This document shows, piece by piece, positions 14,398-56,650 of a stretch of DNA of 64,000 bases. Every line of letters begins with the position of its first letter. Within the stretch, counting starts at the first letter, position 1. The notes below the pieces were generated by a model that had not been told where the DNA came from, did not search any database, and was given only the letters and a program-made list of their open reading frames with translations. This stretch comes from Thereva unica. Lineage: Eukaryota; Arthropoda; Insecta; Diptera; Therevidae. Location: contig OX465282.1 of NCBI GenBank assembly GCA_949987705.1, forward strand, positions 89,392,070-89,456,069. The letters are read 5' to 3'. A program made the translations under genes and the position numbers.

Positions 14398-14437
14398 TGG
14401 ATTTTGTGTGTTAACAGTGATTGAGTATTCTAGAATC

Positions 14438-14940
14438 ATGCTGAGATATGTAAGAAATTTGTTCATCAAAAAAGTGCAGTTTGTGTAATTTGTGTTTTTT
14501 TATTGAAGATCTTCTGTGCTGTTTTTGTGTCACTGACTGCTGCTAAGCCGGGCGGCTACTTGGATGATTCCAGTCTGTCATACGCCTCTGGATATGGCTA
14601 CCCTTACTATGGGGGCGGATATGGACACTCATATCTAGGAGGTCATATTGGACATTCTTATCCACCAGCTATATCACACCAAAGTTCAACGATTTTTCAC
14701 GATAAGCATCACCCAATAATTAAGCCAGTTATTAAGACGTATCTCCCGCCTCCACCTGTTGTAAAGACATACTTACCACCACCTGTGATTAAGTCATACA
14801 TCCCACCGGTTTACAAATACTCACATTATCCTAGCTACGCGTTTTCTGGATGGCCATCTTATGGATCCCATAGCCTTTGGGATTCAAGCTGGCCTTCATA
14901 TGGTTCTCATTATGGCTCTCATGGACTTTGGGATTGGTAA
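14438..14940 (+). CDS. Secreted Gly/Tyr/Pro-rich retinin-like cuticle protein, two exons
   Basis: Exons 14438-14449 (ATG CTG AGA TAT) and 14509-14940, joined by a GTAAGA...TTGAAG intron, give 147 residues. Residues 1-16 or so form a signal peptide (I-F-C-A-V-F-V-S-L-T-A-A) with likely cleavage before KPGGY. A Gly/Tyr/His-rich stretch follows, then the family core AISHQSSTIFHDKHH. After that come Pro-rich repeats (KTYLPPP, KSYIPP) and a C-terminal Trp/Ser/Tyr-Gly repeat ending LWDW (WPSYGSH twice). The S-H-Q-S core is shared with the four other such genes here and points to the retinin-like cuticle family. This member is the most diverged. It is probably an extracellular structural protein of cuticle; function is inferred from family and composition. 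Confidence 0.8.
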
Positions 14941-27054: not shown

Positions 27055-27058
27055 AATT

Positions 27059-28274
27059 TGTAGCATATCAAAATTGCTACGAATCCAAAATATTAAAAAA
27101 AGTCCTAAGTCCTAAATGAAATCTTAGTAAAGCACAAAATTATTTCAAAATAAACATAATATAAATATTACAAAAATTTAACAATGACAAACCAAACATA
27201 AATATTACAAAAATTTAACAATGACAAATCAAACATAGATATTACAAAAAAAAATTTATTTTAATTAGACCTAACAATTAAAATACCTAATCACTTAAAA
27301 ACCTGTAAGACCCAAACAGAGCGGAAGTTCGAATGCCCGAGTCTTCGAAAACGGCCGCGTGGCGAGAAAATAGAGAACCGATCCTTCTTCTCGTGCCAGC
27401 ATGCAAAGAGTATAGACCTATAGTGAACAGAAAAGTAAAATTTAGAAAAGTGGAATTCAGTAAAGTTTAAAACATTTAATATATATATAATTACTCTAAA
27501 TAAATGTATCAAAGTTTAAATAATATGAGTAGTACACTCATAATAAAAAAAAATGTACCTAATTAAATAATGCTCCAGGTAGCCAGAACACATAAAATAA
27601 AAAAAGAAAGGGAATATGCAACAAAGGAAATAATTAAAACTACCTACCAACCACCAGGGAAAAGGAAATATATGGAATATAATAAAAGCATAACCTGTCG
27701 GAGGAGGCAAATAAATCAACGCCACATGCAGACACTGCACAACTTAACCAACGTGGGACTTCCAGATAAGAAAAAAAACATAATAATTCATATATATAAA
27801 ATAAAATAAAAAACAAAAAAAAAACCTTATTATAACTTATATTTATTCTATTATATTTATTATATTACATATTTATTTAACTTATTATCTATATTGGTCA
27901 AATTCATGCTTACATAGTCTGTAAATTATTCCCCTTAATTTATTATTTATGTAAATTGCATGCCTAGGAAATACAATATTAGTTAGATGGGCCCGGATTA
28001 AGTAGGTAAGCGAGTAAGTAGCATAAGGATGCTTATACCTTTAAGAAGTTTTGAATATTATAATAAATTACTAAGCGTTATGTGTAAGGCATTTGAGAAA
28101 AAGGATATGTTTTTATTTCATTCTCCGCAAACCAATTCATTTCCAAAAGAAAAGAAATATTATGACAGGGAACTACGTATACAAATTTCGTCGCCTTCCA
28201 TGGCCTACGAAGGGTTCCCGCCCGGGAAAAAGTAATAAACGTTAGATCCACGATATTAAAGGAAATACGCGATA
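27059..28274 (+). repeat. 5' LTR
   Basis: Begins TGTAGCATATC and is shared with the 3' LTR without any length change. The end is placed at GCGATA from the AATT duplication; the copies actually match two bases further (to ...GATAAA). The only difference I noticed is T at 27443 against C at 31670. It is AT-rich and contains an AATAAA-type signal near 27500. The open frames within it are duplicated in both LTRs and are not genes. Confidence 0.9.
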
Positions 28275-28279
28275 AAATT

Positions 28280-28297
28280 TGGGGGCTCGTCCGGGAT
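28280..28297 (+). other. Primer-binding site complementary to tRNA-Pro
   Basis: TGGGGGCTCGTCCGGGAT is a perfect 18-nt complement of the 3' end of tRNA-Pro including CCA. It lies a few bases after the LTR. The same primer is used by gammaretroviruses, but nothing else here is retroviral in that sense. The rest of the leader (28298-29659) has no recognisable frame. It offers a possible splice donor (AGGTAACA, about 28390) and acceptor (TTTATTTTAG, about 29530). Confidence 0.85.
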
Positions 28298-29659
28298 TTC
28301 TTTTTATAATCAAACACGCGTAAATTTCCTAACTTCATATTTAGGTGCCAACGACCAATATTCATATTTACGATTATCCCCTTCAAACTAAGGTAACAAT
28401 AGGAATCAGCCATTTCATTTCAATGCCATCTATCAATTTTTCATTCTTGGCAAAGCAAAATCGTAACCGTGCATTACAATATAAGGTCCAGTGTCAGTGT
28501 CATCCAAATCTCCGTCTGTCAAGTCGAAATTGCAATACAAGTCCGATTAATCCGTGTACTTCGGAATAATTAAAAGTAATAATATATAAAACAAGTGATT
28601 AGATATCTATTTAAATTAGTAACAACTAAAGTGAAAATAATGCTAGATAGTGTCAAACTAAGTGCGCCAAAATCTCAGATAGCGCCGTAGTCTAATTAAT
28701 TTGTAGTGCTTATATTTTTTAATGAAGTAAACAAAGTGATGACAGGCAGGGCTGCTGTGACAGATCCCATACCACAAAGTGATATTAAATTTTGTAAATA
28801 GTGCAATTGATAGTCAACTTACTTGCGACATATTGTGATTCATTTGCATGTAAGAATTTTTCAGATTTAATGTTACCTTCAAATATCATTGAAAATAGTA
28901 CCCATTTTAGTGTCTTTGAGTTAAATTTATGTTATTGTTAGGATTATCAACTCGATACCCATTCATTTGTTTCAAAGTACTTGTGATCTTATTATTATAC
29001 GTCGAAATTATAAGGTTTTCCTCAAAGGTTTTCTAAAATTTAATAAATTTTGTGCTACTTTATAGTTTAAGCGCTCAGTGATTTCATACAGATCGTTTAT
29101 AGTCATGTCATCATGATAAGATTCTGTTTTGAGTATTCCTTTTAGGTACAAGAAGATTTCTTTTGTTTCTTTAAGCCTGCTTCAGTTTATAGTTATTTCA
29201 ACCGATCCTAATTTGACCATACCTTTTGTTTTGAAAGGCAATATCAAAGTTGAGGGCGATAACATGAGGAAGTGGCGATCGGAATTTAAATAAATAAAGT
29301 TTTGAATAGAAGTATGGGTAATTTATGTAATTTATATGATAATGATAACAAGTGATGCGCAGTATAAGTGAAAGTTTATATTTTCTGATTGTGATTAATT
29401 TTTGGTCGGTAAATAGTTAATGCCTATTATTTGCGTGGGATATTTACGTATAGCCAAGTGAAGTAACATGACGTTTTAATATACTTCGCTCGAATTTTGT
29501 AGACATTTAAAATTTTGTTAGTTTATTTTAGACGAATGTTGGCAGCTCTCATTGTGTTGAATCTTTTATGTCCTAAATATCCGTAATAAAAGTTGGTGAT
29601 CTTATTTAGTAAATTATCTAAAATTTTATCTGTGCGTAAAGAAATTTAATTGATAGAAA
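28298..29659 (+). other. Leader region between primer-binding site and captured gene
   Basis: About 1.36 kb of AT-rich sequence with stops in all frames. No gag-like coiled coil or zinc knuckle is visible. It could combine retroelement leader and packaging sequence with the 5' UTR of the captured mRNA; I cannot locate the junction. Confidence 0.5.
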
Positions 29660-30409
29660 ATGTCGAGATCAAGAGCAAGTTATACGTGGGATCGCGGTAT
29701 TTTCCCCGCTCTACGAACAATTATGCATTTAATTGCCGTCACACATTATTGGTACGCGATTTACCACGATTTCAATCACGTTGAAATTCCGGTAGGCTCC
29801 AGGTTCCACGGAATGGGAAACTCTTTCGGAGGGAAATTCAAGTACCTGACTGTTTTAGATGCGTTTATCCAAGCAATTTACTCCACGATAAGTCTTTTAA
29901 ATGATTTTATCGGAACAAACGAAGTAGCACCAAAGAAAACGCCTACTATACGACAGTTAAAAGATTATTTGCTGGCAGCACTAGCATTTCCTGTAGCACT
30001 AAACGTTGGAATATCATTTTGGACAGTAATGGCTATAGACAGGGAGCTGGTCTTCCCAAAAGCGTTTGACGGATTCTTTCCCAGTTGGCTTAATCATGTT
30101 ATGCACACAACTATAACGGTATTTATTGTGCTAGAGATGTTTATCTCCTTAAGACAATATCCTAAACGTAGTAAAGGATTACTAGACCTTCTATTGTTTA
30201 TGGCAGGATATTTAGTTTGGCTTCCTAATATAAAACACGTTTCTGGTGTTTGGGTATATCCATCATTAGAAGCATTGGATCTTCCACAACGAATCGCCTT
30301 CTTTATTGTTAATTTAGGATTGGTAGTATTCTTGTATTTAACTGGTGAATCCCTTAACAATAAGATTTGGATAAAAGAACTAAAGCTTGCGCATCGTAAG
30401 ACAAATTAA
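29660..30409 (+). CDS. AIG1/ADTRP (FAR-17a) family membrane hydrolase, captured in an LTR element
   Basis: A 249-residue intact, single-exon frame with a good start (GAAAATGTC). Six hydrophobic segments are visible at about residues 15-36, 62-84, 103-125, 143-163, 174-194 and 213-230. Family landmarks include FKYLTVLD, WLNHVMHTT, GVWVYPSLE and LYLTGESLNN. Thr64 aligns with the catalytic Thr43, and His149 with His134, of human AIG1, a threonine hydrolase of fatty-acid esters of hydroxy fatty acids. The enzyme is therefore probably competent. Length fits the family (about 230-250). Host copies of such genes normally have introns (a general expectation I cannot test here). The lack of introns, the LTR boundaries and the A-rich tract behind it argue for reverse-transcribed capture. 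Expression would be driven by the 5' LTR, possibly through splicing. Confidence 0.93.
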   Translation: MSRSRASYTWDRGIFPALRTIMHLIAVTHYWYAIYHDFNHVEIPVGSRFHGMGNSFGGKFKYLTVLDAFIQAIYSTISLLNDFIGTNEVAPKKTPTIRQLKDYLLAALAFPVALNVGISFWTVMAIDRELVFPKAFDGFFPSWLNHVMHTTITVFIVLEMFISLRQYPKRSKGLLDLLLFMAGYLVWLPNIKHVSGVWVYPSLEALDLPQRIAFFIVNLGLVVFLYLTGESLNNKIWIKELKLAHRKTN

Positions 30410-30446
30410 ATTTAATTTAGCTACAAATTAATATATCAAAAAAAAA

Positions 30447-30507
30447 TACCGTTGAGGTATTTAAAAAAAAAAAAAAAACAAAAACCAAAAACAAAAAAAA
30501 AAAAAAC
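30447..30507 (+). other. Hairpin and A-rich tract behind the captured gene
   Basis: AAATACC-GTTGA-GGTATTT forms a short stem-loop, followed directly by an A-rich run (30461-30506, A's broken by a few C's). It begins about 50 bp after the stop codon. It looks like the relic of an mRNA poly(A) tail carried in with the gene. Confidence 0.6.
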
Positions 30508-31044
30508 GATTCCATAGAATTTTAAAATAAAATTTTTTGCACTTGCGTAGGGTATTTTTCATATGCAAACGATTTGTTTTTATTAAATTAAAATAAAGTT
30601 AGAATTCTTTGTAGCTTCAAGCAATTTTACTAAATGATAAACAAAACATTCATAATTAATTTGTTTTCCTATTGTTTAAAGTTGTTGCTTAGTTGTAGAA
30701 TCCACGTGTATTTAAAGGGCATTTTTTAAGCGATCAGTAAATCTAAATTTCTCTATAAAATGTATTACGAGTCATTTTATTAAAATATATAATGAAGAGA
30801 TTACCAAATTATACACATATATACAGTATATAAAAGAAACTAAGTACTTTCGGACAAATCCAAGGGATTCTCCGCGATGAATGCACAGTTTCTGAAAAGA
30901 TTTCTGACCTGTGTTATAGATTAAAAGATAGGAATGGGGTGGATATTGGTAAATGGCACATAAAGGATCTTAAGTAGTATTTGTTAAATAGTATATTTTT
31001 CAAGTTAATAATCCTTTTATAATCGTGTACTTCCAATAATTATT

Positions 31045-31215
31045 ATTAAGAGCGGCAAGCGTAGAGCTCCCGACTCAACTAATGTACAAAAAACTAATAA
31101 TTATAATTAAGAGCGGCAAGCGTAGAGCTCCCGACTCAACTCAAGTTATAAATCCTTTTAATCGTGTATTTCCATTGTTATTAAGAGCGGCAAGCGTAGA
31201 GCTCCCGACTCAACT
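31045..31215 (+). repeat. Three copies of a 36-bp motif near the 3' LTR
   Basis: The unit begins ATTAAGAGCGGCAAGCG and ends CTCCCGACTCAACT. It is present, effectively identical, at 31045-31080, 31106-31141 and 31180-31215. The first and third are each preceded by a related AATCCTTTTA...ATCGTGTA stretch, so a larger unit was duplicated. Each contains GAGC/GCTC pairing potential. Position just before the purine tract suggests a 3' regulatory or RNA-export role, which is inference. Confidence 0.85.
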
Positions 31216-31277
31216 AGTATACAAAAAAAATTGTCCTTAACACGGATTCGCGAAGCACAATTTTTTTTCCCAGGTTC

Positions 31278-31285
31278 GGAGGAAA
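31278..31285 (+). other. Polypurine tract
   Basis: GGAGGAAA lies immediately before the 3' LTR start TGTAGC, the expected site for plus-strand priming. Confidence 0.75.
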
Positions 31286-32501
31286 TGTAGCATATCAAAA
31301 TTGCTACGAATCCAAAATATTAAAAAAAGTCCTAAGTCCTAAATGAAATCTTAGTAAAGCACAAAATTATTTCAAAATAAACATAATATAAATATTACAA
31401 AAATTTAACAATGACAAACCAAACATAAATATTACAAAAATTTAACAATGACAAATCAAACATAGATATTACAAAAAAAAATTTATTTTAATTAGACCTA
31501 ACAATTAAAATACCTAATCACTTAAAAACCTGTAAGACCCAAACAGAGCGGAAGTTCGAATGCCCGAGTCTTCGAAAACGGCCGCGTGGCGAGAAAATAG
31601 AGAACCGATCCTTCTTCTCGTGCCAGCATGCAAAGAGTATAGACCTATAGTGAACAGAAAAGTAAAATTCAGAAAAGTGGAATTCAGTAAAGTTTAAAAC
31701 ATTTAATATATATATAATTACTCTAAATAAATGTATCAAAGTTTAAATAATATGAGTAGTACACTCATAATAAAAAAAAATGTACCTAATTAAATAATGC
31801 TCCAGGTAGCCAGAACACATAAAATAAAAAAAGAAAGGGAATATGCAACAAAGGAAATAATTAAAACTACCTACCAACCACCAGGGAAAAGGAAATATAT
31901 GGAATATAATAAAAGCATAACCTGTCGGAGGAGGCAAATAAATCAACGCCACATGCAGACACTGCACAACTTAACCAACGTGGGACTTCCAGATAAGAAA
32001 AAAAACATAATAATTCATATATATAAAATAAAATAAAAAACAAAAAAAAAACCTTATTATAACTTATATTTATTCTATTATATTTATTATATTACATATT
32101 TATTTAACTTATTATCTATATTGGTCAAATTCATGCTTACATAGTCTGTAAATTATTCCCCTTAATTTATTATTTATGTAAATTGCATGCCTAGGAAATA
32201 CAATATTAGTTAGATGGGCCCGGATTAAGTAGGTAAGCGAGTAAGTAGCATAAGGATGCTTATACCTTTAAGAAGTTTTGAATATTATAATAAATTACTA
32301 AGCGTTATGTGTAAGGCATTTGAGAAAAAGGATATGTTTTTATTTCATTCTCCGCAAACCAATTCATTTCCAAAAGAAAAGAAATATTATGACAGGGAAC
32401 TACGTATACAAATTTCGTCGCCTTCCATGGCCTACGAAGGGTTCCCGCCCGGGAAAAAGTAATAAACGTTAGATCCACGATATTAAAGGAAATACGCGAT
32501 A
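31286..32501 (+). repeat. 3' LTR
   Basis: Same length as the 5' LTR, differing at the one site noticed (C31670). Flanked on the right by AATT then GACCACTTC. Near-identity of the two LTRs indicates little time since insertion. Confidence 0.9.
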
Positions 32502-32505
32502 AATT

Positions 32506-46990: not shown

Positions 46991-47572
46991 TTGGTATTAT
47001 CTGACAAGGATCAAGGACTCTATTGCAAGTATTGCGTCATTTTTGCGGCCGGTGAATATGGCGGGCATCAGGCAAGCGCACGTATGGGTAATCTTGTGAA
47101 AACGCCACTGAAATCATTTGCAAAACTGACTGGAATACGAGGTCATCTTGAAAGCCACTTGAAAAATCAGTATCACAGAGATGCTGTAGAGGTCGGGCAG
47201 GAATTTCTTCGCCGCTACCACTCAAAAGATCCTGATGTTGTAAATATGATTACTACTCAACACAAAAAAACAGTTGAAGAAAACAGAGTCAAATTGCGCA
47301 GCATTGTTGAAACAATAATCTTTTGTGGACGTCAGAATATCCCACTTAGAGGCCACAGAGATGATGGTAGGATTGCGAGCTGTGACGATGTGGATGTTTC
47401 TTTTTCGACGAATGAAGGTAATTTCAGAGCTTTGCTTCAACTTCGAATGCTTGCTGGAGATGCCGTTTTACAAGAACATCTGAAAAACGCATCATCTAAT
47501 GCTTTGTATACTAGCAAGACCAACAAAATGAAATCATTGACTGTTGCAAAAATGAAGTGCAAGAGCAGCTAA
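46991..47572 (+). pseudogene. hAT transposase, N-terminal part (TTF-type zinc finger)
   Basis: Contains LYCKYCVIFA, then ASARMGNLVKTPLKSF, and H-L-x-x-H-L-K-N-Q-Y-H, the TTF-type zinc-binding domain (C-x2-C ... H-x3-H). The next block (IIFCGRQNIPLRGHRDDG) is the standard start of the DUF4371 region. The frame runs out at 47572 because of a one-base shift at about 47520. An in-frame stop also precedes residue W-like sequence near 46987, so the true start is uncertain. It would bind the transposon ends. Confidence 0.85.
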
Positions 47573-49113
47573 TCAATCAGGTGCTTCAATCAGGAATTTA
47601 TAGCATCATATTTGATGAGACTACTGATACGTCGCATACCGAACAACTTAGCCTTTCTTTACGGTATTTTTACGAGGGCCAAATCAGAGAAGATTTCTTA
47701 TCTTTTGTCGATTGTTACGAATCTATTCGCAAGGAGGACGTTGCTGAGCACGGAGAGAAACGACTTTCTGGCGAGGCTCTAGGTCATATAGTGCTGGATA
47801 TTGTCAAGTCTTTTACTTTGGATACCTCAAAATGTGTCGGGATCGGAACGGACAACTGCAGCGTAATGATTTCTGGAAACCAAAAGAATCTGGGAGCTGT
47901 TGCAACAATCCAGCTTGAAGCAACGAATGCCAAAAGATGCCCATGCTACAACCATTCTTTGAATAATTATCTTGCAAAGACTTGCAGTGTGGCGTCCTGC
48001 AGAAATGCTATGGGAACAATGAAAAAAGTGACTCAGTTCGCTAATGCTTCAGCCAAACGGGCTCACTTATTTCGACAAGAACTCGGTATAGCTTTCAGTG
48101 GGCTTTGCGAAACTAGATGGGCGGAAAGACACGATGGCGTTTTGCAATTTCGTACAAATTTGCCAGGAATCATGAACGCACTTGACAAAATCGAGAATTG
48201 GCAGGACAAGTCAACATCATCGGAAGCTTTTTGTCTTCGCAGTGTCCTTGAAAACAGCGACTTCTTGGTTTCAGCAATTGTTCTATGCGATGTCCTGGAA
48301 ACTACACAACAACTCAGTACTCTTCTGCAGTCTGAGTCGTTAGACTTGGTTTGTGCAAATGATGCTCTTCCAGATGTGTTGGCTATTCTACAGTCACATC
48401 GAGAAAAAGCATCTGAATGCTTTAAAAACCCATTCGTCGAGACGAAAATGATTACAGAAGAAAGAGGTATTCAAATTACCACTCCACGCAATTCCTCAAA
48501 AGCCCGACAAGAACATCGATCTAATCCACCGGCAGATAACGTGGAAGAGTTATACTTGAGGTCAGTTTATATCCCGGTCTTAGACTACGTTATTGCAGAT
48601 TTGAAAGAACGTTTACCTAAAGATACCTTAAATTCTTTTAATCTGGCCATATTCATTCCGAGCCCTATAACTGATAGCAGCGAAGATGTCAATAAAGCAT
48701 TGTCATTGGCAATCCAATATAAGGATTTTCTTGAAGATGTAAGGGGAGCTGTATCCTTTAAAATGAAAAAGGAGTATGAATCCTGGAGACAAAAATGGAA
48801 CCGAGAGAAGGAAAAGGGAAGTTCCATACCCGAAACTGCTGTTGCGACATTCAGTTATTGTAACAAGGATCAGTATCCTATCATCAGCACAATGATACAG
48901 ATATTGCTTACGCTTCCATCAAGTGTTGCGACAGATGAACGGTCCTTTTCAACATTACGTCGTATTAAAACATGGCTGAGGACCTGCATGGGTGAAGACA
49001 GGCTTACGGGTCTAGCCCTGCTAAATATTCACCATGATATCCATATGAATATTGATAATATTATCGAAAGATTTGCTAAACAAAAAGCAAGAAGACTTAA
49101 TTTTATTATTTAA
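47520..49113 (+). pseudogene. hAT transposase, catalytic and dimerisation part
   Basis: Continues the same protein in the next frame. IIFDETTDTSHTEQLSLSLRY carries the first catalytic acidic residue; a C-V-G-I-G-T-D-N-C segment the second. After that come CPCYNHSLNNYLAKTC, LCETRWAERHDGV and, near the end, TLPSSVATDERSFSTLRRIKTW, the hAT C-terminal dimerisation motif. About 530 codons are open without a stop, so only the frameshift near 47520 and the uncertain start separate it from a full-length gene. Ends with a normal stop at 49113. Confidence 0.9.
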
Positions 49114-52564: not shown

Positions 52565-53217
52565 ATGTCCTACTTACCTTTCGTTACCGCGAAGCTCAAG
52601 GTAGCAAAATTGGAGTTTGAACATATGGTTCAACTAGGGATTTGTCGACCATCGTCGTCTCCCGCAGCATCTCCACTTCATCTGGTCCCTAAACGGGATA
52701 CAAATGATTGGAGGATAGATATCCAATTCCGCACATTCACCATTTTTCTGTGAACCTTCACGGGTGCACGATTTTCCCCATTGCACTAGAAGACGTGCAT
52801 AAGACTGCTTTAATAACACCCTTTGGTCTGTTTGAGTTTACTCGCATGCCATTTGGGTTAAGAAATGCAGCCCAGTCATTTCAAAGGTTTATGAATGAAG
52901 TCACAAGAGACTTAGACTTCATTTATGTCTATCTAGACGATATACTTTTCGCTGGTAAATCCGAGGATGAGCATCTCATTCACCTCGAAGTACTGTTTAA
53001 ACGTCTTGATAACTTTGGGTTAACCATAAAGTTATCAAAATGCGTTTTTGGTGTCAGTGAGATCATGTTTTTGGGACATAGTATCAGCAAGGATGGAATC
53101 CTTCCATCACCCGAACGTGTCCAAGCAATTAATGACCTCATAACTCCAACAACAGTTGAACAAATTCAAAATTGTTTAGGAATGGTGAGCTTTTATCACC
53201 GATTTGTTCCTAACTAG
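52565..53217 (+). pseudogene. Gypsy reverse transcriptase
   Basis: Motifs in order: [49 protein letters not shown] (catalytic YLDD), then a [10 protein letters not shown] and [11 protein letters not shown] block. The catalytic aspartates are intact, but the N-terminal part is frameshifted near 52730 and the frame ends in a stop at 53215. Confidence 0.85.
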
Positions 53218-53373
53218 CACAAATGTTAGTGCCAATTAATGAACATTTGAGGAAACTCCTCAATCGTCCATCAACAACAAAAAATAAGAAACAACTTCGT
53301 TGGCCCGCAGAATGTCAATAAGACGTGAAAGCCGCAATGGCTGCAGCAGTTATGCTGATACATCCACTAGAGG

Positions 53374-53830
53374 ATGCGAAATATATGTAGCGTCACAACT
53401 GATGCTTCCGATTTTGCTATCGGAGCTGTGCTGGAACAGTTTAACGGTCAAAGGTGGCAACCATTAGCTTTCTATTCTAAGAAGTTGTCATCTGCTGAAC
53501 GAAATTATTCTGCATTTGATCGCGAACTACTCGCAATCTATGCAGCAATAAAACATTTTCGGTACTATGTTGAAGGAAGAAATTTTGTGGTCTACACCGA
53601 CCATAAACCATTAATACATGCCTTTCACACAAAAACCGAAAGATCCCCGCCAAACAAGACACCGGAACCATATTCCCAGTTCACAACACATCAACATCAG
53701 ACATGTCTCTGGGAAACAAAACGTTGTCGCAGATTATTTATCTCGCTCTTTAGCGGCCGACAACGTTGACACAATCACCTTCGATTTGCCACATCTGGCG
53801 AAAGCACAAGAAGGTGACAAAGAGTTACAA
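53374..53830 (+). pseudogene. Gypsy RNase H
   Basis: SVTTDASDFAIGAVLEQ, then PLAFYSKKLSSAERNYSAFD, ELLAIYAAIKHFRYYVEG and FVVYTDHKPLIHAF. The acidic catalytic positions D, E, D are visible. After a frameshift at about 53640, NVVADYLSRS ends the connection domain. No integrase follows. Confidence 0.85.
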
Positions 53831-53939
53831 CGGCTCCAAGAGCATCCCAGTAGTTGCTCAAAGGTAAAACTAATGCTCACACCAATCCCTTTCACAACTC
53901 ATGAAGTTTGGTGTGAGATTAGCACGGGTACATTACGCA

Positions 53940-54140
53940 TACGTTTCTTCCCTATGGAAAGCGTTTTGTTCGCTTTCTTAATGAACTCTTCTGTGTTTTC
54001 ATCCCTGATAAGCTTCTTGTCCAGGTCTACTCCTAGATATTTGGCACTGTTGCTAAGTTTGAGCCTGACTTTGTTAAGCCGGGGGAGTTAGTGGTGGAGT
54101 TATATACCTTCTCGTGAAGAGGACTAATTCTGTGTTTTCT
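53940..54140 (-). pseudogene. Jockey/R1-type RT C-terminal fragment
   Basis: Minus-strand VNPENTELVLFTRRY followed by a L-x-L-S-N-S-A-K-Y-L-G-V-like segment, the region after the RT catalytic box. Short and isolated. Confidence 0.55.
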
Positions 54141-54312
54141 GGGTTAACAAAGCCAAATATCGTTATAGGCATGGACTTATTAAATCGTTTTGGACTAGAA
54201 ATGAAGTTCACAAGCCAACCAGAGGTAACCAGTACGAATATCTCTGAAACCGATTCAGTCTTAACTATCACCGCACACGAGGAGAATGAACTCGGAAAAT
54301 TTTTACAAAAGT
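54140..54312 (+). pseudogene. Gypsy-type protease C-terminal fragment
   Basis: KPNIVIGMDLLNRFGLEMKF is the second protease block (I-x-G-x-D-x-L). It is separate from the main Gypsy copy. Confidence 0.5.
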
Positions 54313-54314
54313 AA

Positions 54315-54699
54315 CTAGCCAAAATTTGAAAGATTAGGAAAAACTACCTTGTCGAACATAAGATTTGGCTAAAAACCGACCAGCCAACAAAACACCAGGC
54401 CTTTCTAAGGTCTTGTCGGCGTTTCTTATACAGTGTCGAGATGAATGATCCGCATTTATTCTGAAGGGAGCTATCCTGATCGACGGATCTTAAAACTGCT
54501 TTGGAAGGGGGTAGGATTCGGCAAATATAAGTACCCTTCCACCCTCCTTGGCCTCATTTGATCCGCCGCTGGTGCAATCCTAGAATATGCTTGATCAATT
54601 TGGGACTCCATATCTGATATTAATTGCAACAGGTTTGAATTTGTTAAAAGGGATGCTTTATGCTCCCGATTTACCTTTTTTTTATTTTATATGAAAAAA
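54315..54699. other. No recognisable gene
   Basis: Short spacer of unknown origin between two retroelement remnants. Confidence 0.3.
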
Positions 54700-56650
54700 A
54701 CCAAGCTTAGGTGTAACCCTTTATACTACCAGTGCGTCATGTCGTTCAGTTCATGGTGCAATGTCTAGTAGTAAGCTTGGTTGTTTGAAGAATAGAGGAG
54801 AATAGGAAAGGTTAGAGGGGGTCTGGAGGGTGTAGAAGAAAATGACGATGAACCTCACGTTTGAGCTCTAAGGTGTTGGACGATTTCGGAAATACTAACT
54901 GCGGGAGATTATTCCACAGTCGAGTTGTTCAATTCATAAACGAACTTCTAAACCGTAGTGTGCGTGAACGAGGGGGCTGTAGGGTATGGGGGTGAGCCGA
55001 GCGGGCTAGTCTTGTTTTGCCGGAAAAGTATTGCCGTGCAGGCAGGAGGTCCAAGGACCAGCCAAGGTGGTTTTCGGGGCGCGTGCCCAGATATGTGAGT
55101 TGTATTCGAGGCGTGGCCGAATGTAGGATTTGTATATTGTAGCCAATGCGGCTGGCTGGAGGAGGAACTTGCATCTCTTGAGAAATCCAAGGCATTGGGA
55201 GGCTTGTTTGGCGATTTGGAATATGTGATCATTCCATCGCAGATGCTCCGTTAAAGTTACCCCTAGGATGTTGAGAGTTGAGTCACCCGTTAGATTCTCT
55301 TTATCCACTGAGATAGGAGGAAGGTCGGTACAATTTTTGTTGGAGATCAGACAGTGCTTCGTTTTTGTGGCATTGAATTCGACGCGGTTCATTTCGCCCC
55401 AATGAAGAATCGATTCGATATCCCGGTTGATCGAAGCCGACATCAGTTGACGGTGGTAAAGACAAGGTCTGGCACGTGCTTGTCTTATATTGTCGAAGGA
55501 GCAAGAGAAATTCAGAGTACCGTCATCAGCGAAGCAGTGAAGTGGGTTGGAGGGGATTGGGAGCAGATCATTAATGAAGATTAGAAAAAGTGCAGGTGAA
55601 AGAATTGACCCCTGGGGAACTCCGGCCGAAATGGCGTGGGGTTGGATTCGACGCCATCCAATACTACCTTGATTGAACGGCCTGAAAGAAAGCTCTTAAT
55701 CCAGTTCCTTAGAACTAAGTGTATACCAATAGCTTGGAGTTTATTCAACAGAGCTGGTTGCCATACTCTGTCGATAGCCTTTGATATATCTAGAGCAACC
55801 TGGCTAGACTCACCAAAGCTGTGAATGCTTTGGTTGATACGCTCAGTTAAACACACAAGCAGATCGCCAGTAGACCGTTTAGATCTGAAGCCGTATTGCC
55901 TGTCGTGTATAATTTGGTTGGATTCTAGATATTTCATCAGCTTTTTATTGATTATTGTCTCCATGATTTTGGAGAGAACAGAAGTAATTGCTATTGGGCG
56001 GTAGTTTAAGGGGTCGCTGGCTTCACCTTTTTTTGGGATTGGCTGAACATGAGCTAGTTTCCAAGAGTCGGGATACACTCCGGAGAAGTAAGACAGGGCA
56101 AAAAGTTTGCGCAGGGGTTTAGCCAAAGGTGAGGTACATTTTTTAAGTACCATAGGGGGGATTTTGTCGGGACCAGTGGATTTATTGGCGTCGAATTCCT
56201 TGAGACACCTAAACACCTCGCGAGTCCTGAAGTGAACTCCGTCCATAGAGTGGGTGGTATTCTCGAGAGTGGGGGGTGACATAGCAGCAGAGAAGCTAAT
56301 AGGTCGGCCTTGGGTTTGCTTTCTGTTATCACTTCCTTGTTGTGAATAAAAGGAGGTGTTGAGGAGGAAGTAAAATTCTTCTTGATGGCGGTTACCAAGG
56401 ACCAGAAGTTTTTGCTGCCTGTAGTGGAGATAAGAATCTTACTTCTCAATCTATCATCAAAAAATGATTATTTGACTCTCCTGATGATGGAGTTACAGGA
56501 GTTTCTCAGTTTGATGTACTCACGACGAAGTGGCTTACCTTGAAAAGATCGACTCAAAGTTATGGATCCTATGTCACTGTCGATCCTAAATGATAACCAT
56601 AAAGTGCAGTTCTTGTCCGCCCGGTGGAATTTTAATCTAAAAGAAGGCAA
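54700..56650 (-). mobile_element. Jockey/CR1-like non-LTR retrotransposon, largest copy
   Basis: Minus strand, 5'-truncated near 56650. Reading downward: linker (56468-56650), 56054-56449, RT (55581-56282) with STGPDKIPPMVLKKC, NYRPIAITSVLSKIME, QYGFRSKRSTGDLL and QVALDISKAIDRVWQPALL, then 55006-55443 with VEFNATKTKHCLISN, LRWNDHIFQIAKQASQCLGF and YKSYIRPRLEYNSHIWA. The 3' end carries the family tail. The FADD box is disrupted by a frameshift near 55590, and there are other shifts. Not autonomous. Confidence 0.85.
55581..56282 (-). pseudogene. Reverse transcriptase of the Jockey/CR1-like copy
   Basis: About 230 codons open. Contains RT motifs 0 to 3 as listed for the element, including the LDISKAIDRVW block, where the usual AFD reads AID. 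Ends at 55581 by a frameshift just before the expected FADD motif, so the catalytic centre is split between frames. Confidence 0.8.

Follow-up and report, generated by a model that had tools for sequence, protein, structure and literature searches.

Gene capture by long terminal repeat (LTR) elements is already known, mostly from single retrocopies, gene fragments and transforming retroviruses. In oncogene-transducing retroviruses, a host mRNA replaces viral genes and a helper is needed for propagation. Among retrotransposons, published work describes mRNA capture by LTR elements via template switching at microsimilarities (PMC5408686), occasional transduction by LTR elements, with mention of host gene capture (PMC6431247), gene fragments in 30 elements of seven subfamilies of plant terminal-repeat retrotransposons in miniature (TRIMs; PMC4717578), and a GDSL esterase open reading frame (ORF) in LTR elements of bdelloid rotifers (PMC5408684). 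We analysed a 64,000-nucleotide stretch of the Thereva unica genome (contig OX465282.1, positions 89,392,070–89,456,069 of the forward strand; hereafter the window), in which a young LTR element of 5,443 bp (27059–32501) holds a captured gene of the AIG1/ADTRP (FAR-17a) family between its LTRs. Very probably, it belongs to a family of non-autonomous LTR retrotransposons with a host gene as cargo, which would derive from a captured mRNA, be mobilised in trans and probably be a passenger. Capture and mobilisation of a host lipid-hydrolase-family gene, as put forward in an original prediction from the window alone, is supported by at least 41 intronless copies, mutually different target-site duplications in 16 of 18 elements checked, an intron-bearing parent gene elsewhere in the genome and relatives that contain gag and pol.

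To count copies, the 910-Mb genome containing the window was searched at the protein level, and the counts are lower bounds. At least 52 matches were obtained and grouped into at least 42 places, comprising 41 intronless copies (that of the window included) and one parent. The window copy is thus not the sole one, and the search for further copies of LTR and gene suggested in the original prediction revealed a family. The first 542 bases of the LTR, compared with the genome, yielded 40 scored matches among 168 candidates. Inspection of the sequence of all 41 intronless copies showed that 40 of them extend into the element 3′ end. Target duplications were assessed in 18 elements, with both ends examined in each, and a perfect 4-bp duplication was found in 16, all mutually different (AATT, AGTA, TGCA, AAAG, GTAG, GACT, CAAG, ACAG and TTTC in a first set; ATTA, AATG, GTAT, GCTT, GCAT, AATA and ATCT in a second). 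Integration has taken the family to about 40 sites. It moved recently, since the LTR pairs of ten elements differ by just 0–1.2%, with zero mismatches in five. The coding regions of the 33 full-length copies are 97.5–98.5% identical to the window copy, which would suit an assembly or segmental duplication of one locus; however, the 16 different target duplications, along with different contigs and flanks, refute this for those 16 elements, and the carriers have two LTR types, so that the probability of such a duplication is negligible. Nor are the two LTRs of the window element an assembly duplication, given the many copies with different target duplications. In being non-autonomous LTR elements with host exons, the carriers resemble maize Bs1 and the gene-carrying plant TRIMs, and TRIM carriers likewise have target duplications (PMC5408686 and PMC4717578). 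Unlike the plant TRIMs, for which PMC4717578 describes gene fragments, they contain a complete coding region with parts of the untranslated regions (UTRs), are present in more copies and reside in an animal.

The intron-containing parental gene, whose existence was among the points to be checked, was found on contig C5 (locus L059, 90156252–90158916). It consists of three coding exons separated by two GT–AG introns of 1,847 and 68 bp, which are absent from the copies and identify these as retrocopies. The spliced parent has 249 codons, with 722 of 750 coding bases the same as in the window copy, and its UTRs extend the match to the cassette at either side. The 5.4 kb inspected at this locus yielded no LTR and no leader, nor any gag-pol or element 3′ end. 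Because the parent has introns, matching UTRs and no element sequence around it, the elements hold a copy of its spliced mRNA.

Comparison of the LTR pair in the window placed the 5′ LTR (TGTAGC...GCGATA) at 27059–28274 and the 3′ LTR at 31286–32501, each of 1,216 bp with one mismatch between them, which bears out the two equal LTRs originally described; border comparison revealed AATT duplicated at both borders (27055–27058 and 32502–32505). From the 5′ to the 3′ LTR, all parts lie on the + strand. The leader (28275–29624), which sequence comparison found to be common to the gag-pol relatives L019, L021 and L023/L024, contains an 18-nt primer-binding site (28280–28297), which we take to be a tRNA-Pro match of the murine-retrovirus type. 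The primer-binding site of the original prediction was retrieved, starting at 28280, with tRNA-Pro as its putative primer. Among 19 carriers in which this site was read, three have the form that would fit tRNA-Pro perfectly (the window element, L034 and L036), and 16 have a form with two changes; L021 also has the changed form. The perfect sites of these three carriers would be accounted for if the primer itself had been copied into them. Downstream follow a remnant of the host 5′UTR in a short form (29629–29659; about 234 nt are kept in other copies), the captured gene, which is intronless and intact (29660–30409; 249 codons), and the captured host 3′UTR, whose last bases are the ATACAGT switch site (30410–30820). 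Thereafter come a remnant of the pol 3′ end (~30821–30978), a 61-nt repeat unit present three times, and once in the gag-pol relatives (31035–31230), and the predicted purine tract GGAGGAAA (31278–31285), which abuts the 3′ LTR. The proposed lack of gag, pol and env holds in that gag and nearly all of pol are gone, and is to be amended for the pol 3′-end remnant. The family thus combines the paired LTRs, primer site, purine tract and target-site duplication of LTR retrotransposons, and the gene carriers, with a pol 3′ remnant and no gag-pol of their own, are non-autonomous. Classification as a large non-coding LTR derivative (LARD), the internal part of which lacks coding capacity, was ruled out by the intact 249-codon gene.

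At the 3′ capture join, the host sequence (...CATATATACAGTA) and the pol sequence (...GATACAGTTTATAAAAGAAACTA) have ATACAGT in common. At the 5′ join, which is preserved in long-form copies, the leader stops short of the gag frame and gives way to the host 5′UTR. About 475 bp spanning the leader end and the host 5′UTR are missing in six of the first ten copies, including the window copy, and more of the leader has been lost in L015. The extra 505–512 bp of the long-form copies were considered as an intron and rejected, as the ends are not GT–AG; about 269 bp are leader and the rest is host 5′UTR. The joins are alike in the window element or L009 and in the oldest-looking copy, L060, which points to a single capture by template switching. 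A spliced AIG1/ADTRP-like host mRNA and the RNA of a Ty3/gypsy-type element would have served jointly as templates, with the reverse transcriptase, to judge by the joins, switching from pol into the mRNA 3′UTR at the shared ATACAGT and then returning to the element at a point in the leader ahead of gag. Host 5′UTR, coding region and 3′UTR would thereby have replaced gag and nearly all of pol in a chimera that retained the LTRs, primer site, leader, 3′ end and purine tract. By virtue of these cis parts, it could have been packaged, copied and integrated in trans by gag-pol relatives. A spliced host mRNA between LTRs, a short shared sequence at the 3′ join and the proposed template switching have their counterpart in the LTR-mediated retroposition of Tan and coworkers (via PMC5408686); what differs from the individual retrocopies described there is that one capture, with the whole coding region, was re-mobilised to about 40 sites. 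The intronless copy with its UTRs would also suit a processed pseudogene, made by a long interspersed nuclear element, that inserted into an LTR element and multiplied along with it. However, the insert replaces gag-pol instead of splitting it, the 3′ join has no visible poly(A) tail, the insert is not visibly flanked by a target duplication, and ATACAGT is common to host and pol at the join, all of which makes this origin very improbable.

Relatives with the same LTR and leader that could act as autonomous partners, another point raised in the original prediction, do exist. L021, L019 and L023/L024 have the leader and 3′ end in common with the carriers and contain gag and pol in between. L021, whose 5′ LTR is 97.9% identical to that of the window element, encompasses a gag frame of 501 codons (Retrotrans_gag) and a pol frame of 1,050 codons that encodes protease, reverse transcriptase, RNase H and integrase, for which the best match in the PDB is Ty3; pol is broken in L019 and L023. 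The Ty3/gypsy order, gag followed by protease, reverse transcriptase, RNase H and integrase, is that of L021, which has the same LTR and leader; the carriers themselves have no reverse transcriptase to classify. No env was found in L021, where some 180 nt separate the end of the pol frame from the 3′ LTR match, so that it does not qualify as an env-bearing retrovirus. As Ty3/gypsy-type gag-pol is present in relatives that have this leader and 3′ end, these relatives probably move the gene carriers in trans. In having host mRNA in place of viral genes and depending on a helper, the carriers recall oncogene-transducing retroviruses, from which they differ by the lack of env in the gag-pol relative L021 and by their germ-line copies. 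As a side observation, a copia-type element adjoins an LTR of the gene-carrying family in L027 (6556–8468); this sequence had been considered as a second cargo, which was ruled out by its copia-type identity.

Two LTR types were distinguished among the carriers, with five elements of type A and 15 of type B confidently typed. The remaining 13 of the 33 full copies were dropped because typing from about 30 bases was unreliable, which changed the four-gamete count from 24 of 33 to 7 of 19 sites. B LTRs are 91.5–92.1% identical to the window LTR over 84–90% of columns aligned, and 86–91% in local pieces. No coding site is fixed between the five A and 15 B carriers, all four combinations with LTR type occur at the said seven of 19 shared coding sites, and long and short 5′ forms are present on both types. 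Two LTR types without a fixed gene difference suggest that the cassette changed LTR lineage; its incongruence with the LTRs is shown by these comparisons and would be accounted for by recombination between co-packaged RNAs. The LTR of L060 is of a third type, about 82% similar to A; of the 14 sites that set the host apart from all 33 full copies, nine have the host state in L060, which is thus an early branch. The core of the 3′ repeat unit, searched with up to four substitutions allowed, occurs once in all four gag-pol elements or derivatives (L018, L019, L021 and L023) and, among 23 carriers counted, once in L060, twice in L061 and three to five times in the other 21. An expanding 3′ repeat array would fit a cis signal for spread.

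The captured gene belongs, by its sequence, to the AIG1/ADTRP (FAR-17a) family. As had been stated of the window, ORF 29660–30409 encodes an intact protein of 249 residues, with FAR-17a/AIG1 (PF04750) as the single Pfam match (residues 19–234, E 6.9e-64, 215.6 bits against a cut-off of 24.5). Its predicted activity, assigned from the family, is that of a hydrolase. All 33 full copies retain Thr64 and His149, which by their motif we take to be equivalent to the catalytic Thr43 and His134 of AIG1. A threonine and a histidine are described as the catalytic residues of the AIG1/ADTRP hydrolases of fatty-acid esters of hydroxy fatty acids in PMC8123165. The window copy was ruled out as the nearest to the parent, since it departs at residues 36, 42, 75, 151, 153 and 164, at which the host agrees with most copies; three of these residues are within 15 residues of His149. 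A single-sequence structure prediction had a mean predicted local distance difference test (pLDDT) value of 47 and was not used.

The preserved gene raises the possibility of a functional cargo, in which the captured hydrolase would be translated from element RNA, aid the element via lipids or membranes and be kept by selection. Consistent with this, 33 of the 41 intronless copies are full length and 32 of them have no stop and are intact, the two putative catalytic residues are invariant, the ratio of nonsynonymous to synonymous substitution rates (dN/dS) from host to copies is 0.46, a value that includes the host's own constraint, and another retroelement-borne lipid-related gene is known in the GDSL esterase (PMC5408684). 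Other observations weigh against a functional cargo. Mean dN/dS was 0.79 over 496 pairs of the 32 intact copies (0.85 in an earlier count on nine copies). Changes were polarised with the host gene, which replaced an unpolarised count (shared changes, 24 nonsynonymous (N) to 10 synonymous (S); singletons, 62:23), and gave N:S of 62:22 for singletons, 24:11 for shared changes and 8:6 for fixed differences, compared with a neutral expectation of 2.76:1 from the singleton mutation spectrum. T150, adjoining His149, is replaced by P or K in three of 33 full copies. A frame loss near codon 210 is common to L014 and L057, which differ at 14 of 749 bases, and may go back to a single loss that was spread as the element moved, or to two separate ones. 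Finally, 19 ATGs precede the gene after the 5′ LTR in the window copy (26 in L009). Selection among copies, as envisaged in the original prediction, thus found no support, and a functional cargo is unlikely. Slightly less likely again is that the elements have turned into selfish carriers of an active host lipid hydrolase, which would be made from element RNA and aid the element through membranes, particle assembly or transfer, with the 3′ repeat array selected as a cis packaging signal. The copies evolve near neutrally, and the gene is most likely a passenger whose frame is mostly open because they are young.

Several observations weigh against a trans-mobilised passenger derived from one capture. 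ATACAGT provides the 3′ join expected of LTR-mediated retroposition, but at the 5′ join 9 nt of unassigned origin separate leader and host 5′UTR, and clear microhomology is lacking. In L021, whose gag and pol frames are both open, the 3′ LTR is truncated (match of 311 bp), and type-B LTRs were absent from the few gag-pol relatives examined. Two elements have no perfect target duplication, as the 3′ LTR end of L010 is altered and the 5′ LTR start of L040 was not found, and L058 ends within the gene and is not joined to the element 3′ sequence (one of 41 copies). Fixed and shared changes together (32:17 N:S) include somewhat fewer N than the singletons (p 0.33), so that weak constraint may persist.

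In sharing an LTR element with a lipid-hydrolase-type gene, the bdelloid GDSL-esterase elements come close; there, according to PMC5408684, ORF3 of another enzyme family is added to gag and pol, whereas here the gene replaces gag-pol and the parent is in the same genome. As judged from titles and the starts of abstracts, the openly licensed literature searched yielded no animal LTR family that carries an entire, mostly intact host gene in many copies, nor any link of AIG1 to an LTR element. Parent, switch point, gag-pol relatives, the early branch L060 and about 40 descendants are together in one genome, and the cargo has passed between LTR lineages, so that it can be tested step by step how a single captured mRNA became a mobile gene family. 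A retroelement can thus multiply one host gene about forty-fold. Elsewhere in the window, a Retinin-like ORF, in keeping with an insect host, is found at 14434–14937 (PF04527, E 1.1e-8), a 532-codon frame, counted from stop to stop, with a hAT dimerisation domain at 47515–49110, apparently a hAT transposase, and broken RVT_1 reverse-transcriptase frames on both strands at 52708–56438.

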